Positions 1,977 through 57,551 of a stretch of DNA of 64,000 nucleotides are shown piece by piece; positions within the stretch are counted from its first letter, which is position 1, and every line of letters starts with the position of its first letter. The notes beneath the pieces were generated by a model that was not told where the DNA came from, ran no database searches, and saw only the letters and a list, made by a program, of their open reading frames with translations. The stretch covers positions 1-64,000 of the forward strand of contig JAURYH010000002.1 in NCBI GenBank assembly GCA_030653975.1, in the 5' to 3' direction. Both the position numbers and the translations under genes were made by a program. The DNA comes from Hydrogenophaga sp. (GTDB taxonomy: Bacteria > Pseudomonadota > Gammaproteobacteria > Burkholderiales > Burkholderiaceae_C).

Positions 1977-2401
1977 CAGTCGGTCCTGAGGGTGTTCAGC
2001 GCCTGGGTGGACTTGCCCACCGGCAGGCGCGGCACGAACTTGAAGGTGCCGGTGGCGTGGGCGCAGAGCTTGCCCTCGGCGTCGAAGAGGCTGCCTTCGG
2101 TGAAGGCCATGGTGGCGGTGCGGTGCAGCAGCCTGCCTTTGGCGAGCAGCACCCCCTTGGCCGCGCGCATGAAGCTGGTTTTCATCTCGATGGTGACGCA
2201 GCCCATGGCAGGCTCCACCGAACGCGCCGCGTGCGCCATCACCACGTCGAGCAAGGTCATGCTGGCGCCGCCGTGCACCACGTTGAAGGAGTTTTCATGC
2301 TCGGGCCTGGGCGCGAAAGCGATCTCCGCTTCCCCGCCTTCGAACTTCTGCAGTTCGAAGCCAAGCAGTTCAACGAATGGGATGTGGACCGAGAACTCCA
2401 C
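1976..2401 (-). CDS. PaaI-family hotdog thioesterase
   Basis: 141-residue single-hotdog protein with the PaaI/YbgC-like signature VVHGGASMTLLD, followed by a long central strand region (GCVTIEMKTSFMR). Such enzymes hydrolyse acyl- or aroyl-CoA to free CoA. It starts with GTG directly after the TGA of the upstream SDR, with AGGAGG 4 bases before. It is the second thioesterase of the operon, so it probably relieves CoA trapping or releases an end product. Substrate not determinable. Confidence 0.85.
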   Translation of the reverse strand: MEFSVHIPFVELLGFELQKFEGGEAEIAFAPRPEHENSFNVVHGGASMTLLDVVMAHAARSVEPAMGCVTIEMKTSFMRAAKGVLLAKGRLLHRTATMAFTEGSLFDAEGKLCAHATGTFKFVPRLPVGKSTQALNTLRTD

Positions 2402-3193
2402 TCAACCTCCTGTGATGACAGAGACGCCACCATCCACCGCCAGCCATTGGCCCGTGATGTGTTTGCCGGCATCCGACGCGTACAGCACGGTCAGGCCCTT
2501 CAGGTCTTCGTCGTCGCCCAGGCGGCGCAGGGGGGCGTGTGAAGCCAGCTTCTCTTCGCCCATGGCTTTCAGGGTGCCCTGCGTCATCTTGCTCGGGAAG
2601 AAGCCCGGGCAGATGGCGTTGACGCGGATGCCATGTTCGCCCCATTCGGCGGCCAGCGCACGGGTGAAGTTGATCACCGCGCCCTTGGAGGTGTTGTAGG
2701 CAATCGTCTTCATGCCCGAGGGGTTGCCGCCCAGGCCGGCGATGCTGGCGGTGTTGATGATGCTGCCCGTGCGGCGCGGGATCATGCTGGCCTTGGCGAT
2801 CAGCTGGCTGAGCAGGAAGTAGCTGCGCACGTTGAGGTTCATCACCTTGTCCCAGGCTTCGAGCGGGTGGTCTTCGGCGGGCGCGCCCCAGGCGGCACCG
2901 GCGTTGTTGATGAGGATATCCACCTCGCCCACGCGCTGCAGGGTTTCGCTGGTGAGGCGGCGGATGTCTTCGTCGAGCGAGCAGTCGGCGGCGATCCAGC
3001 GCGCGTCGATGCCGGCGGCCTGCAGCTCGGCGGTGGCCTCTTCCAGATCGGTGGCCTTGCGCGAGCTGATCACCACGCGGGCGCCGGCCTCACCGAGGGC
3101 ATGGGCCATCTGCAGGCCCAGGCCGCGCGATCCGCCGGTGACGAGCGCCGTCTTGCCTTTGAGGTCGAAAAGTTGCTGGATGTTTCGGGTCAT
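2402..3193 (-). CDS. SDR family oxidoreductase
   Basis: 263-residue classical SDR: TGGSRGLG near residue 18, NNAG near 98, and active-site YNTSKG near residue 162. The end VDGGVSVITGG is typical of FabG-like catabolic dehydrogenases. ATG at 3193 is preceded by AGGAG at good spacing. It is immediately followed by the GTG of the thioesterase, so the two are co-translated. A 3-hydroxyacyl-CoA or beta-ketoacyl reduction/oxidation step is likely from the operon but not proven. Confidence 0.88.
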   Translation of the reverse strand: MTRNIQQLFDLKGKTALVTGGSRGLGLQMAHALGEAGARVVISSRKATDLEEATAELQAAGIDARWIAADCSLDEDIRRLTSETLQRVGEVDILINNAGAAWGAPAEDHPLEAWDKVMNLNVRSYFLLSQLIAKASMIPRRTGSIINTASIAGLGGNPSGMKTIAYNTSKGAVINFTRALAAEWGEHGIRVNAICPGFFPSKMTQGTLKAMGEEKLASHAPLRRLGDDEDLKGLTVLYASDAGKHITGQWLAVDGGVSVITGG

Positions 3194-3220
3194 GGGAAGT
3201 GTCTCCTGTGGATGGGTTGT

Positions 3221-5044
3221 TCAGAAAGCGGTTTCGGGCAGGCTGGCGCAGGTCTGGTCGCGCGCGCTCACCACCAGCAGCCAGGCGCCGGTTTTCGGCA
3301 GTTCGTAGTGGAAAAAATAACGCATGGCGCCCAGGCGCCCGGTGCGCGCGGGCGCGTCGTGCGAAGCCTGCGCCGCGAGCGCCACGTCGAGCCAGATCCA
3401 GGCCAGCACCGTGTGACCAAAGGCCTGCAGGTAGGGCACGGCGTTGGCCAGCGCGTCGCCCGGATTCCCGGTAGCCCAGGCGGCTTTGGTGGCCGCCCCC
3501 ACCTGCGCCAACGCCTGGCCCAGCGTGTTGGCGTGTGCGGCGAGTTCGGGCACCTGGATGGCGCGCTGAATGGTGGCGTTGGTGCGGTCGGCCAGCAACT
3601 GCAGGCCCTTGCCGTTTTCCATCAGCACCTTGCGGCCCAGCAGGTCCATGCCCTGGATGCCGTGCGTGCCTTCGTGGATCATGTTGAGGCGGTTGTCGCG
3701 CCAGTACTGCTCCACGGGGAAGTCGCGCGTGTAGCCATAGCCACCGTGCACCTGGATCGCCAGCGAGTTGGCCTCCAGGCACCATTCGCTGGGCCAGCTC
3801 TTGGCGATGGGGGTCAGCACCTCCAGCAGCAGGCGCGCGTCGTCCGCGGCCTCGGGCGCGCCGGTGTGCTGTTCGTCCACCAGCCGGGCGCAATACAGCT
3901 CCAGCGCCAGCGCGCCTTCGCAATAGCTCTTCTGCGCCAGCAGCATGCGTTTCACGTCGGCGTGTTCGATGATGCGCACCTGGGGTGCGGCCGCGTCTTT
4001 TCCGCCTGTTGTGACCGGTCGCCCTTGCGGCCGGTTCTTCGCGTAGTCGAGGCTCGCGTGGTAGCCCGCCATGCCCAGCATGGTGGCCGCCATGCCGACG
4101 CCGATGCGTGCCTCGTTCATCATGTGGAACATGCACTGCAGGCCCCTGCCGGGTTGCCCAACGAGGTAGCCCACGGCTCCCGCTGCACCGCGCACCGGGT
4201 ACTTGCCTTCGCCGAAGTTCAACAAGGTGTTGGTCGTTCCGCGCCAGCCACATTTGTGGTTCAGGCCGGCCAGCGCCACGTCGTTGCGCTCGCCGGTCAG
4301 CTGCCCTTCGGTGTCCACCAGCTTCTTGGGCACGATGAACAGCGAGATGCCTTTCACGCCCGGCACCAGCTTGCCCCCCGCGTCGGGGATCTTGGCCAGC
4401 ACGAGGTGGATGATGTTCTCCGTCAGCTCGTGTTCACCGGCCGAGATCCACATCTTGTTGCCGCGCAGGCGGTAGCGCGGTCCGAGCGGGTCGGCCTCGA
4501 AACCTTCGCCATCGGGCACCGCTCGCGTCACAACGTCGCTCAAAGATGAACCGGCCTGCGGTTCGCTCAGACACATGGTGCCGGAGAACCGGCCACTGAA
4601 CTCGTTGAGCGCGAACACGCGCTTCTGCGCCTCGGTGCCGTGTTTCATCAGCAGGTTGGCGTTGCCGGTGGTGAGCATGCCGCTGCCGATGCTCACCGAG
4701 GCCATGGCAAAAAAGGCGTTGGCCGCGGCCTCCACGGTGTAGGGCAGCTGCATGCCGCCAATCTCATAGTCCTGCGCGGCGCTGAGCATGCCGCTCTCGG
4801 CATAGGCCTTCTGCGCGTCGTGCGTGGCCTGCGGCAGGATCACCTTTTCGCCATCGAACCGGGGCTCCTGCGTGTCCACCAGGCGGTTGAAGGGTGCGTA
4901 CTTCTCGCGTGCGATGCGCTCGCAGGTGTCGAGCACGGCGTCAAAGGTTTCTCGGCTGTGGTCTTTGAACCGTTCACGCTGGCTGAGCGATTCGGCACCC
5001 AGCCAGTCGTGGAGCAGAAAGTCGATGGTGGGGCGAAGACTCAT
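3221..5044 (-). CDS. Acyl-CoA dehydrogenase, large (about 607 aa) type
   Basis: The open frame runs back to 6226, but homology begins at MSLRPTIDF, whose ATG ends at 5044. The upstream part is a shadow of the Bug receptor gene. The 600-residue length and internal motifs (MCLSEPQAGSS, KMWISAGEH, RDNRLNMIHEGTHGIQGMDL) place it with the FAD enzymes carrying the extra C-terminal acyl-CoA dehydrogenase domain, as in the DmdC/AcdA-like group. It catalyses alpha,beta-dehydrogenation of an acyl-CoA, the first step of the beta-oxidation encoded here. The catalytic glutamate is probably the E of HEGTHG. Confidence 0.9.
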   Translation of the reverse strand: MSLRPTIDFLLHDWLGAESLSQRERFKDHSRETFDAVLDTCERIAREKYAPFNRLVDTQEPRFDGEKVILPQATHDAQKAYAESGMLSAAQDYEIGGMQLPYTVEAAANAFFAMASVSIGSGMLTTGNANLLMKHGTEAQKRVFALNEFSGRFSGTMCLSEPQAGSSLSDVVTRAVPDGEGFEADPLGPRYRLRGNKMWISAGEHELTENIIHLVLAKIPDAGGKLVPGVKGISLFIVPKKLVDTEGQLTGERNDVALAGLNHKCGWRGTTNTLLNFGEGKYPVRGAAGAVGYLVGQPGRGLQCMFHMMNEARIGVGMAATMLGMAGYHASLDYAKNRPQGRPVTTGGKDAAAPQVRIIEHADVKRMLLAQKSYCEGALALELYCARLVDEQHTGAPEAADDARLLLEVLTPIAKSWPSEWCLEANSLAIQVHGGYGYTRDFPVEQYWRDNRLNMIHEGTHGIQGMDLLGRKVLMENGKGLQLLADRTNATIQRAIQVPELAAHANTLGQALAQVGAATKAAWATGNPGDALANAVPYLQAFGHTVLAWIWLDVALAAQASHDAPARTGRLGAMRYFFHYELPKTGAWLLVVSARDQTCASLPETAF

Positions 5045-5131
5045 GGCGTGCGATGGTTCTGGAGAAAGCGCTAGTGTGCCGACCCCGTCTTCAACAGACC
5101 AGAGGCGTGGCCGCAGGCAGGGCCGGAATTC

Positions 5132-5173
5132 GTCCCGCAGGGGACAAACCGGCCCGCGCCGGGCCGGTGTCCC
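5132..5173. terminator. Alternative hairpins between receptor and dehydrogenase genes
   Basis: Downstream of the Bug receptor stop lies ACCGGCCCG-cgc-CGGGCCGGT, a 9-bp perfect stem, extended by GGGAC/GTCCC. The same GGGAC can also pair with a second GTCCC at 5132-5136, giving two mutually exclusive hairpins. There is no U tract on the minus strand, so this may be a processing or partial-termination site rather than a full intrinsic terminator. It would let the receptor be made in excess over the downstream enzymes. Confidence 0.5.
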
Positions 5174-5181
5174 TGTCCCGC

Positions 5182-6150
5182 TTATTGCGGTTCGATCTTG
5201 GCGTCCTTGATGGCCTTGGCCCACTTGGCGGTTTCGGCCACGCTGCGCCTGGCCAGGTCGGCCGGGGTGCCGGGCTCCACCGCGAAGCCGATGCCGGCGA
5301 ACCGCTCCTGGATCTCCTTGCTGCTGGCCGCTTCGTTCACCGCCTTGTTGAGCTTGGCCACAATGTCGGGCGGTGTGCCAGCGGGTGCGAACACCGCGAA
5401 GTAGGCGATCAGCTCGTAGTCCTTCAGGCCCAGCGCTTCGTTCACGGTGGGCAGCTCGGGCACGGCCGGTGAGCGCTTGGCCGAGGTCACGGCCAGGCCG
5501 CGCACCTTGCCTGCCTTTACCTGCGGCAGCATCACCGCGAAGTCGGCGCTGAACATGTGCACCACGCCACCGATCAGGTCGGTCATGGCGGCGGGTCCAC
5601 TCTTGTACGACACGTTGGTGAGCTGGATGCCGGCCATGCCCGCCATCATCTCGGTGGACACCAGCTGCGAGGTGCTGGCGCTGGCGAAGTTGATGCTGTT
5701 GGGCTTGGCCTTGGCCATGTCCACCAGCTCGCGCAGGGTCTTGGCCGGCACGTCGTTGTTGACCGCCATGATCAGCGGCACCGAGCCCATGTAGGCCACG
5801 GGCGCGAACGCCGTATCCTGGTCGTAGGGCAGCTTCTTCATCAGGCTCTTGAGCGCGGCGTTGGTGCTGTTGGTGCCGATCAGGATGGTGTAGCCATCGG
5901 GCGCGGCCTTGGCCACCGCATCGGCCCCCAGCAGGCCGTTGGCGCCGGGCTTGTTGTCCACCACGATGGTCTGCCCCAGGGATTCCTGCATCTTCAGCGC
6001 GAAGGCGCGGCCGATGGTGTCGGTGGCGCTGCCGGCGGCAAAGGGCACCACGGCCTTGATCGGCCGGTCGGGCCAGGCCTGGGCCAGGGCAGCTGATGAA
6101 CACGCCAGCGCAGTGGCTGTGATGGCCAGCAATCGGAACACAGGACGCAT
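5182..6150 (-). CDS. Bug-family tripartite tricarboxylate transporter substrate-binding protein
   Basis: 322 residues from the ATG at 6150, which has AAGGAG 7 bases upstream; the track start 11 codons earlier lacks this. A signal peptide is followed by mature AQAWPDRPIKAVVPFAAGSATD, the classic Bug/TctC opening. Motifs such as VVDNKPGANG and the PELPTVNEA loop are typical. Periplasmic receptor that captures a carboxylate. No TctA/TctB membrane genes are in the operon, so it must share a transporter elsewhere or act as a sensor, as is common for Bug proteins in Burkholderiales. Confidence 0.93.
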   Translation of the reverse strand: MRPVFRLLAITATALACSSAALAQAWPDRPIKAVVPFAAGSATDTIGRAFALKMQESLGQTIVVDNKPGANGLLGADAVAKAAPDGYTILIGTNSTNAALKSLMKKLPYDQDTAFAPVAYMGSVPLIMAVNNDVPAKTLRELVDMAKAKPNSINFASASTSQLVSTEMMAGMAGIQLTNVSYKSGPAAMTDLIGGVVHMFSADFAVMLPQVKAGKVRGLAVTSAKRSPAVPELPTVNEALGLKDYELIAYFAVFAPAGTPPDIVAKLNKAVNEAASSKEIQERFAGIGFAVEPGTPADLARRSVAETAKWAKAIKDAKIEPQ

Positions 6151-54021: not shown

Positions 54022-54060
54022 CATAAACTGCTTCAAAATCCATTTATGAAAGTGTTTATG
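54022..54060. promoter_or_regulatory. Inverted repeat at the start of the Lrp gene
   Basis: CATAAAC and GTTTATG face each other across 25 bases in an AT-rich stretch between the divergent E1 and Lrp genes and overlap the two possible Lrp start codons. This is a plausible site for Lrp binding and autoregulation. Confidence 0.4.
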
Positions 54061-54525
54061 GCTTTGGATGCAATTGATATCCGCATATTGTCCGAGCTGC
54101 AGGAAGACGGATCGCTCAGCAACGTGGAGCTGGCGCGGCGGGTGAATCTTTCGCCATCGCCCTGCCTGGTGCGGGTGAAGGCGCTGGAAAACGAAGGCGT
54201 GATTGAGCGCTATGTGGCCTTGGCCGACCCCAAGGCTTTGGGGCTGGGGCTCAACGTATTCATCTCGGTCAGCCTGAAAGAGCAGTCCAAGGCCGCGCTG
54301 GCCGAGTTCGAGCGCCGCATCGCCGAGCACGACGAGGTGATGGAGTGCTACCTGATGTCGGGCGACAGCGACTACCTGCTGCGCGTGGCCGTGGCCGACA
54401 TCGGGGCGCTGGAGCGGTTCATCCTGGAGCAGCTCTCGCCGATTCCCGGGCTGGAAAAGATCCGCTCCAGCTTCGCACTCAAGCAGGTGCGCTACAAGAC
54501 CGCGCTGCCGCTGCATGCGGTCTGA
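54046..54525 (+). CDS. Lrp/AsnC-family regulator (MdeR-like position)
   Basis: 159 residues from ATG 54046, or 155 from ATG 54058 ([11 protein letters not shown]); ribosome sites are weak, and the longer track start lies outside the family. The helix-turn-helix is [28 protein letters not shown]; the C-terminal RAM domain has [19 protein letters not shown]. Divergent from the E1 gene, which it probably induces in response to an amino acid. Confidence 0.9.
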
Positions 54526-54532
54526 GTAACGA

Positions 54533-54569
54533 CTCCCTCCCCCACTGGGGGAGGGCTGGGGTGGGGGCC
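54533..54569. repeat. REP palindrome downstream of the Lrp gene
   Basis: ctccctcccccactgggggagggctggggtgggggcc, one unit of the same family as the 46-kb and 51-kb elements, 8 bases after the Lrp stop. It may act as the Lrp transcript end. Confidence 0.75.
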
Positions 54570-54740
54570 TGCGGCTGGAGCAGAAGCGCTTCTTCTGTGC
54601 GGCTTTGACCTGTCCTCCCCACCAGCCGTGCCAGTCTGAAGTCAGCGAGGTCCGTCAATCACCAAAGGACTGCTTTATGGCGCTGCCCGGTACTCACGCT
54701 ACCGGCCATGAACAGTCTTTACACATACGCAAAAGCAGCC

Positions 54741-54797
54741 GTTCAACGCCGAAGCTCAGCGGGCGACGAAGCCATCCGTTGGAGCGATCTGTTAGCC
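54741..54797 (-). other. attC-like recombination site (cassette 3' end)
   Basis: On the minus strand: GGCTAAC-agatcgctccaacggatgg...gagcttcggc-GTTGAAC, 57 bases. The right end fits the integron core site GTTRRRY exactly; the left end fits RYYYAAC at all but one position. The stretch TAAC-n3-TCGCTCCAACgGA is shared with the second site at 55889-55946. Lies 7 bases downstream of the hypothetical gene that ends at 54805, on the side expected for a cassette in this orientation. Confidence 0.7.
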
Positions 54798-54804
54798 TTG
54801 AAAG

Positions 54805-55335
54805 TCATAAGCCACCGCCCTTCATATATTTGTCGAGAATGGCTGTGGCTTCGCGTATGGCTTCTGGATCTTTGAGACTCCACTCGCGTATTACGCCAAG
54901 CGCATTGTTGCATTCCTCAAAAATTTTCACATTGGCGTCTACCGAATTTAGAGAAAATCCGGCCCGACCACGGAGTGATCCTTTCATGCGGACCCACTTG
55001 GATGAATCGCCACATTCCACTGCATAAAAAGAGTGAACCACCCGATTGCGGTATTCCTCAGCTGCATAGAGTGCTTTCCGAACATCCGCCACTTCCACTT
55101 TAGGAAAGTTCGGATGCCGTTCTGCTCTACGGGGAAAGATCTCCACCAAAAGGTCAACCTTCTGCTTGAAACTCATTGCTGCCGAGACAAGGTATTGGTC
55201 TTCCTTCTCGCGCATGCGGAGAAGCAAAGCCAATTCTTCAGCCAGCCATTGTTCAACTTGTTGGAATCGGACCACTGTGTGACCAATGGCTCGAAGCAAC
55301 GCGTCGGTTTGATCGACCAGATTGCTTTCAGTCAT
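54805..55335 (-). CDS. Cassette-borne hypothetical protein with HEPN-like RNxxxH motif
   Basis: 176 residues from ATG 55335; the track GTG start is 16 codons earlier. Helical throughout; EEYRNRVVHSFY near residue 98 is the R-x4-H signature of HEPN ribonuclease-like domains, and an earlier helix region (VVRFQQVEQWLAEELALLL) is compatible with that bundle. Base composition is clearly lower in GC than the neighbours. Between two attC-like sites, so it travels as an integron cassette. Function unknown; toxin or antiphage activity is possible but unproven. Confidence 0.7.
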   Translation of the reverse strand: MTESNLVDQTDALLRAIGHTVVRFQQVEQWLAEELALLLRMREKEDQYLVSAAMSFKQKVDLLVEIFPRRAERHPNFPKVEVADVRKALYAAEEYRNRVVHSFYAVECGDSSKWVRMKGSLRGRAGFSLNSVDANVKIFEECNNALGVIREWSLKDPEAIREATAILDKYMKGGGL

Positions 55336-55404
55336 AAAGGCAAACGTTTGAGATGAGAGGCGTGCCCGGGCTTGCTGGGGCACTTCCTCTCGATTGGAGG
55401 GGCT

Positions 55405-55863
55405 TCACTGCGGGACGAGGTTCATTGCGAGTGCAGCCAGCAGCAGGGTAACTGCCACTAGTACGACGAGTGATGCCCACTCGCGAGCGGTGAAATCGCG
55501 AAACTGAGGCTTAAAGGGATTCAGGATGCTCCAGTACGACCGACCCATTCGCTTGGTGTGCCGGTACATCAGTACGTTACCACCAATTAGCCAGAGGCAT
55601 CCGGCTGCAGACAAGAGAAGAACCTGTATCCAAGATAGCTGTGGGACCGATAGGTTGGCGGGCGGCTCATCCTTGAGCGGTGCACTGAAGTCAACGAATC
55701 CAGCCAAATGCCCTAGACCAAAGACTACAACGATGGGCAGTACGAAGATCGCCACATTCACGAGATAGAACCGTTGCGACTTTGCGGCGAGCATCCTGAG
55801 CCATGCGATCGGTGCGATGATTATCGTGATGCAGAAGAGCGCGATGAACGCGATTTCGAGCAT
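55405..55863 (-). CDS. Cassette-borne integral membrane protein, unknown
   Basis: 152 residues with four hydrophobic segments (AFIALFCITIIIAPIAWL, FYLVNVAIFVLPIVVVFGLG, VLLLSAAGCLWLIGG, LVVLVAVTLLLAALAM). Between segments 3 and 4 lies RHTKRMGRSYWSILNPFKPQFRDFT, probably cytoplasmic. Follows the second attC-like site on the minus strand and lies 21 bases before the HEPN-like gene, so both may share one cassette. No family recognised. Confidence 0.72.
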   Translation of the reverse strand: MLEIAFIALFCITIIIAPIAWLRMLAAKSQRFYLVNVAIFVLPIVVVFGLGHLAGFVDFSAPLKDEPPANLSVPQLSWIQVLLLSAAGCLWLIGGNVLMYRHTKRMGRSYWSILNPFKPQFRDFTAREWASLVVLVAVTLLLAALAMNLVPQ

Positions 55864-55888
55864 AGTGAAGGGACGGAGAGTCTATGAC

Positions 55889-55946
55889 GCCTAACGGTTG
55901 ATCTCAACCACGGCCGGCGGCCGTCGGTTGGAGCGAATAGTTAAAA
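55889..55946 (-). other. attC-like recombination site
   Basis: On the minus strand: TTTTAAC-tattcgctccaaccgacggccgc...gttgagatcaacc-GTTAGGC. The inner boxes CTCcAACC and GGTTGAG pair with one extra unpaired base on the upstream side, as in real attC sites, and the centre forms a GC hairpin (acggccgccggccgt). The right core GTTAGGC fits perfectly. Its position implies another cassette to the right, of which only a remnant is visible. Confidence 0.75.
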
Positions 55947-56143
55947 GGGGCTTTCGCAAATACCGACGGATCTTCTTTTGTAAGCACGGACACACACTCG
56001 GCGGATTCAAGTCTGAAGTGCAACGCTGGATACCCACAAGGGCAGTCGTTAAAAAAAGTCGCATGCCAACTCCGAAATGTGTTTTCAATCAACCAGTTGG
56101 CACAAGCTGGCGGGTTGTTGTGCAGATAAAACAGATCCGACAA
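55904..56143 (-). pseudogene. Possible cassette ORF or remnant ending in the attC site
   Basis: 79 codons from a TTG. The last dozen residues (SLQPTAAGRG) are encoded by the attC arm, a common feature of cassette ORFs. Residues such as PACANWLIENTF are not recognised, there is no good ribosome site, and the start is uncertain. More likely a degenerate or fragmentary cassette gene than a functional one. Confidence 0.35.
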
Positions 56144-56365
56144 ACCTGACCAAGCTCGAGATGCATTACCGAGTTGGCTGGTCAGGCCTGCGAGCCGCTT
56201 ACCAGTCTACTCGGGCATGCACTTTCGACTCGGCAGAACCTGCCGACCAATGCAGCCGCAATGACAGCTTTGCGACACTTTGTCAGATGCCTGCAACGGG
56301 TCGAGAACACCAGTTCGCAAAAGGGGGCTGCGGACGTTCAAGATGAAGTTCCGTACGGGCAGGCA
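56144..56365. other. Non-coding right flank of the cassette region
   Basis: About 220 bases of mixed composition with no supported gene; plus-strand ORFs across it lack any family features. No integrase gene or attI site could be recognised here. Confidence 0.4.
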
Positions 56366-56427
56366 TTGCCCCCACCCTCCTTCGACAGGCTCAGGACAGG
56401 CCAAGCCTCCCCCAGCGGGGGAGGGAG
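56366..56427. repeat. REP unit interrupted by a second repeat
   Basis: The reverse complement of the 54533-54569 unit is present (gcccccaccc...cctcccccagcgggggagggag), but ccttcgacaggctcaggacagg and a few more bases separate its two halves. The inserted piece resembles the widespread cttcgacaggctcag-type short repeat of beta-proteobacteria, so this looks like one repeat nested in another. Confidence 0.7.
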
Positions 56428-56574: not shown

Positions 56575-57546
56575 TTACAAATCGAGCACCAGGCGCGGGC
56601 TGCTCGCCCGCGAACAGCAGGGAAGGAACTGGTCGTTCGCGGCGCGTTCCTCGTCGGTCAGGTACTGGTCGCGGTGGTCGGGCGTGCCGGCTTTCACGCG
56701 CGTGAGGCAGGTGCCACACACGCCCTGTTCGCACGACATGGGAATGTCCAGGCCGGATTCGAGCAGCGCGGCCAGCGCACTCTGGTCGGCGCGCACCGGG
56801 ATCACGCGGCCGCTGCTGGCGATCTCCAGTTCGAAGCTGCCGTCGTTGGCGTGGTCCACCGGCGCGCCGGCGAAGTACTCGCGGTGCAGGCGCTCTTCGG
56901 GCCAGCCCTGGGCACGGCCTATGTTCAGCACCGCGTCCATGAAGCCCTGCGGGCCACACACATAGAGGTGTGTGCCTTCGGGCGCGCGCTGCAGCGTGGC
57001 GGCGATGTCCAGCTTCTGCACCGCATCGCCGTCGTCGAAGTGGTGGTGGGTGTGGCGGGCGAACGCCGATGCCGCGACCCGCTCCAGGAACGGCGTGCGG
57101 TCGCGCGAGCGGATGCAGTGGTGCAGCTCGAAGCACTCGCCCTCGCTGCTCAGGCGCTCGGCCATGGCCAGCAGCGGCGTGATGCCGATGCCACCGGCCA
57201 GCAGCAGGTGGTGCGCCGCATCGGTGGCGAGCGGGAAGTGGTTTTTCGGCGCGCTGATGTGCAGGGTGGAGCCCTCGGCCACGGCTTCGTGCACCGCCAA
57301 CGAGCCGCCACGCGAGGCGGCGTCGCGCAGCACCGCGATCTGGTAGCGGCCGGTCTCGCCGGGCGGGTTACACAGCGAGTACTGGCGCACCAGGCCGTTG
57401 GGCAGGGCGACGTCGATGTGCGCACCGGCGCTGAAGGCGGGCAGGCTGTGGCCGGGTTCGGCCACCAGGTCGAGGCTGCAGATGTCCAGCGCTTCGGTGT
57501 GCTTGCGCGCAACGCGCACCAGCAAGGGGGTTTGGGGTTCGCTCAT
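56575..57546 (-). CDS. vanB: VanB-type oxidoreductase (FMN/NAD reductase with plant-type ferredoxin)
   Basis: 323 residues from ATG 57546. FMN-binding region with RQYSLCNPPGE (near 54), NAD part LLLAGGIGITPLLAMAE (near 118), and C-terminal [2Fe-2S] ferredoxin CEQGVCGTCLTRV plus LPCCSRA. Phthalate-dioxygenase-reductase family, which passes electrons from NAD(P)H to a Rieske oxygenase. Five bases after the oxygenase gene. Vanillate is the best-known substrate of such pairs; other methoxy-aromatics are possible. Confidence 0.88.
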   Translation of the reverse strand: MSEPQTPLLVRVARKHTEALDICSLDLVAEPGHSLPAFSAGAHIDVALPNGLVRQYSLCNPPGETGRYQIAVLRDAASRGGSLAVHEAVAEGSTLHISAPKNHFPLATDAAHHLLLAGGIGITPLLAMAERLSSEGECFELHHCIRSRDRTPFLERVAASAFARHTHHHFDDGDAVQKLDIAATLQRAPEGTHLYVCGPQGFMDAVLNIGRAQGWPEERLHREYFAGAPVDHANDGSFELEIASSGRVIPVRADQSALAALLESGLDIPMSCEQGVCGTCLTRVKAGTPDHRDQYLTDEERAANDQFLPCCSRASSPRLVLDL

Positions 57547-57551
57547 GGCGA

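Follow-up and report, generated by a model that had tools for sequence, protein, structure and literature searches.

The cassette array in our 64-kb window (the whole stretch of Hydrogenophaga DNA that was analysed) begins with a conserved leader and an attI site, and attI platforms of this kind, with no integrase gene beside them, are numerous in the genus. An integron is usually pictured as a single integrase gene with a single attI. Here we consider it probable that cassettes have been exchanged at attI by an integron integrase in trans. This integrase, with its gene at another place in the genome or in an ancestral genome, would have filled the platforms by acting on them from a distance, now or in the past, and the leader would supply the promoter for the cassettes. 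From the attI side the order is leader, attI, cassette remnant, two gene cassettes and terminal attC, as listed here from right to left together with the chromosomal flanks:

56575..57549, minus strand: VanB-like oxygenase reductase, chromosomal flank (Pfam Fer2)
56151..56304, minus strand: type II leader upstream of attI (profile match, E 5.9e-40)
56021..56150, minus strand: attI with a degenerate crossover box, its cassette side facing left (model R1 and alignment with the intI-adjacent attI of G015 and G057)
55947..56020, minus strand: apparent first-cassette remnant of 74 bp (gap between R1 and R2 matches)
55889..55946, minus strand: attC site B (R2, E 6.4e-7)
55405..55863, minus strand: cassette gene, 152 aa (ORF)
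55340..55403, minus strand: attC site C, R'' box degenerate, hairpin intact (R2, E 9.8e-8, and hairpin folding)
54805..55335, minus strand: cassette gene, 176 aa from ATG or 192 aa from an upstream GTG (ORF)
54741..54797, minus strand: attC site A, the last in the array (R2, E 1.6e-4)
54654..54723, minus strand: conserved right-end motif just beyond the terminal attC (profile search)
54052..54525, plus strand: Lrp/AsnC-type regulator, chromosomal flank (Pfam PF01037)

A first attC finder based on regular expressions and folding was too loose and was replaced by the selection of candidates near attI and then by a covariance model, R2, built from 21 attC sites at other loci of the same genus with the window excluded; its two-box structure was supplied by hand, and its shortened calibration makes the E-values rough. 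On the 64-kb window R2 finds three attC sites, all on the minus strand (E 9.8e-8 to 1.6e-4; next-best region E 0.25), and the same three stand out with filters off. The sequence-only reading, which had proposed such a covariance-model check, had described two co-oriented sites of 57-58 bp with two lower-GC genes between them. Both sites are genuine (sites B and A), and the two genes are indeed present in DNA with a GC content of 0.53 at 55-56 kb, against about 0.67 for the window, but site C had been missed; it is the best-scoring of the three and separates the two cassette genes, giving the arrangement gene-attC-gene-attC. The same reading had classed the locus as a CALIN, which holds insofar as three attC sites (at least two define a CALIN) lie here and no integrase gene is found in the window. 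However, attI and leader are present as well, with the attC-bearing cassettes in a single orientation from attI and no intI within 1.5 kb, so that the array is an integron lacking only intI.

Site C has 59-bp matches in further genomes of the genus, and site A has an orthologous attC in G049 (L046 9986-10043). In the 4.09-Mb genome, the motif shared by sites A and B has just two exact copies, those in the window array; contig C44 holds two more places at two mismatches to it, and R2 finds attC sites there too. A right-end motif of about 60 bp (TGGCCGGCAGCGTGAGTAC..GCGCCATGAAGC) was recovered by profile search 14-21 bp past the last attC at six loci (window 54654-54723; L044 10406-10477; L046 9899-9967; L111 3576-3643; L140 4007-4067; L157 2303-2361), and one of these arrays carries intI. 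Outside both ends of the array, at 54533-54572 and 56373-56425, lies a GC-rich palindromic repeat of the CCCCCACTGGGGGAGGGCTGGGGTGGGGG type that is dispersed across the genus. A search of a plasmid collection returned a single 59-bp match, at the query end within this kind of dispersed GC-rich repeat, and Rfam gave zero matches in the window at gathering thresholds.

The attI came to light through alignment: minus-strand 56309-56022 aligns to many places in the genus, and the fuller copies end in TTTGTTTAACGACTGCGGTTGTGGGTATCCGG..TTTAAATCAAAGTTAGGC, an attI whose core fits GTTRRRY. This sequence sits immediately upstream of intI in G015 and G057. The sequence model R1, made from 19 sequences with the window left out, matches the window once, at 56021-56150 (positions 1-130 of 153; E 1.9e-27). 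There the core reads CTTGAAT after a short deletion, and the window attI is mutated and probably inactive; the 74 bp that separate it from the first attC are apparently what is left of a cassette. The conserved leader is about 155 bp long, with its left edge, CGACCC, at about 56297-56303. Its alignment contains a conserved TARACT hexamer, represented in the window by TAGACT near 56205, which is a possible -10 element, and the leader may act as the cassette promoter (Pc). A sigma-70 consensus scan of the leader gave no promoter match, and this, together with the damaged crossover box, counts against the trans explanation. An ORF of 79 aa (55904-56143), described previously as a right-hand ORF ending in the attC arm, does so as a string of letters, but it spans attI, is interrupted by stops in most aligned homologues and is conserved only as attI is; it was therefore rejected as a cassette gene.

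The two cassette proteins have zero Pfam matches above cut-off, zero NCBIfam or PADLOC matches and no PDB relative at a meaningful E-value. The hydrophobic 152-aa protein is a probable membrane protein. The 176-aa protein finds matches in only 2 of 369 genomes of the class, one of which is the source genome, and AlphaFold2 predicts it to be all-helical at low confidence (mean pLDDT 53); its sequence (54805-55335) includes RNRVVH, a string similar to the Rx4H motif known from HEPN proteins.

Between the Lrp/AsnC regulator and the VanB-like reductase, the same kind of platform stands in G049 and G050, so that three species share the locus, and the cassette DNA and proteins of these two match neither those of the window nor one another. 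The flanks, in contrast, are well conserved: the Lrp side is about 95% identical in G050, and the reductase is 87-91% identical in six relatives. An empty site in relatives, for which the sequence-only reading had suggested looking, was not found in clean form at this locus; related species hold other genes between the same flanks. A second locus, between a rhodanese-like gene and a sigma-54-type regulator (both named from sequence appearance only), repeats the pattern in six species. Both flanks or most of them are common at 74-94% identity with attI in place, those inserts that could be measured are about 0.7 to 3.9 kb long, and BLASTP finds no two matching cassette proteins among the six; leader types differ between species, and intI is present in none. 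Unrelated cassettes between conserved flanks, in three species at one locus and six at the other, argue for exchange at attI by an integrase in trans. Alternatively, whole arrays could have been swapped between species by homologous recombination through these flanks, with no integrase acting at the loci. The degree of flank conservation would allow this, as would the occurrence of platforms in genomes without any full-length intI. We nevertheless regard it as unlikely, since the similarity between platforms at unrelated loci stops at about the attI crossover, as insertion at attI predicts, and an integrase would still be needed to fill the donor arrays. At the second locus, the interval from the rhodanese-like gene to the platform, upstream of attI, repeatedly holds a palindrome like CACTGTGTCGACACAATGTCAACACAGTG (L128, L129, L134, L153, L156).

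Across the genus, R1 recognizes about 90 attI sites; they are spread over 33 of 67 genomes, none of which has more than six. It matches two of 250 genomes in an order-wide sample, one of them the source genome, and in a pattern scan of records labelled by organism this attI type turns up mainly in Hydrogenophaga and in one record each from Acidovorax, Polaromonas and Giesbergeria. Among 71 sites examined, some of them near contig ends, a same-strand attC follows within 5 kb downstream at 32; attC lies upstream at three and antisense at none, a directionality that strongly supports the reality of the attI sites. Could they be a mere dispersed repeat that resembles attI, with cassettes nearby by chance? 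Dispersal of the sequence and divergence between its copies would fit this, but the same sequence adjoins intI and has the GTTRRRY core, breaks between copies fall at that core, and the attC that follow, at 32 sites, are on the same strand without exception, which makes such a coincidence very improbable.

The trans explanation draws on this one-sided association, on the attI and three attC of the window array, and on the scarcity of intI: about 49 of the 71 sites lack intI within 1.5 kb, a near-complete intI is present at about seven, and one more has the broken copy of the source genome. A further 14 keep just a 5' fragment, the first 22-130 codons, and these speak against it in that some platforms must once have had intI in cis. 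So do several genomes rich in orphan attI, such as G039 (three contigs; six R1 matches) and G005 (one contig; four), with full-length intI in neither. One can picture every platform as a former complete integron whose cassettes were exchanged at that time and whose intI was deleted later, trans action being uninvolved. The 14 fragments beside attI and the broken intI of the source genome are what such decay would leave, and Xanthomonas offers a documented case in which intI was lost and the arrays stayed (PMC12444791). Local loss has surely occurred at some platforms; as an account of all of them, however, we find it rather less than likely, because the type II leader, found at about 16 attI sites and at many loci, shows no trace of intI, and because the six-species locus, with differing leader types and intI in none, would need many separate losses.

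A TIGR02249 search of the whole genome gives no match on the window's contig, C1, in agreement with the earlier claim that the window lacks intI, and a single integron-type intI elsewhere, on contig C36 (L043, G000:C36). A frameshift near 1945-1950 disrupts this gene, and a RIT-like element of three recombinases with perfect 37-bp inverted repeats (L043 about 2118-5511) sits inside it; no intact integron integrase was found in the 74-contig draft. Its double disruption is a further point in favor of filling in trans, now or formerly. The C36 attI belongs to another lineage, being 53% identical to the window attI, as opposed to 71% for the attI of G057. Since the only intI in the genome is broken and the window crossover box is mutated, the window array is probably frozen now.

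Leader and attI together recur as a discrete unit of about 305 bp at unrelated loci, from CGACCC to the attI crossover. The copies at the Lrp locus of G049 (L046) and at the second locus of G039 (L050) share 91.6% identity over the segment that runs from CGACCC, which lies 152 bp upstream, as far as the crossover, and their flanks are unrelated; G005 and G057 have such pairs at unrelated loci within one genome. In an attI tree that rests on a short alignment and is weakly resolved, the window copy groups with the C44 copy of its own genome, an orphan attI whose core box is intact, and apart from its G049 counterpart at the orthologous locus. It is conceivable, though we put this forward tentatively, that the module is a dispersing non-autonomous unit that provides docking sites, filled and emptied in trans by an integrase that comes and goes. 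Gene conversion between module copies, instead of movement, is an alternative. A reading of the module as a classical transposon was set aside, since a non-systematic look identified no inverted terminal repeats or target duplications.

Arrays related to ours have been described. The definition of a CALIN refers to attC alone, and IntegronFinder recognizes attI only of class 1 (PMC9024848); the window array resembles a CALIN in its co-oriented attC and cassettes with no intI nearby, and differs from it in having attI and a conserved leader. The Shewanella prophage M16-3 contains one CALIN with its own attI, likewise an integrase-less array that starts at attI, and this attI matches that of a complete integron (PMC9892861). 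That is, however, one case in one prophage beside a complete integron, whereas the Hydrogenophaga platforms occupy many chromosomal sites genus-wide, have a conserved leader and carry differing cassettes at orthologous sites. In Xanthomonas, sedentary chromosomal integrons have lost intI, by truncation or entirely, and their arrays remain at conserved places, as here; the platform there is a single place downstream of ilvD (PMC12444791), whereas Hydrogenophaga has several attI modules per genome. Delta-attI-type gene cassettes also carry attI-derived sequence apart from intI, but in them a partial attI replaces attC at the cassette end (PMC12901181), and in Hydrogenophaga an attI with its leader starts the array. 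A literature search that covered few subscription journals returned no account of dispersed attI platforms without integrase in Hydrogenophaga.

Should docking sites prove to be dispersed and to be served in trans, annotation by intI and attC alone overlooks places of cassette capture, many CALINs may be integrons whose attI was overlooked, and cassettes can settle at many places in a chromosome. If, in addition, the module does disperse, one integrase would serve a distributed set of sites. The sequences assembled here make cassette capture in trans directly testable.

Three further arrangements were seen among the platforms. First, at about ten of them intI is cut to its first 22-38 codons, just upstream of attI and with breaks at similar places (L111, L113, L117, L118, L128, L132, L133, L135, L151, L168). 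Second, some platforms stand in tandem, where 67-130 bp separate an attC of one array from the leader that precedes the following attI (L044 9456-9944; L051 9111-9671; L049 9244-9745). Third, at L120, L131, L144 and L145 and at L139 and L142, an orphan attI follows the stop codon of a co-directional conserved gene by only about 20-50 bp, so that read-through from the upstream gene could express the cassettes.
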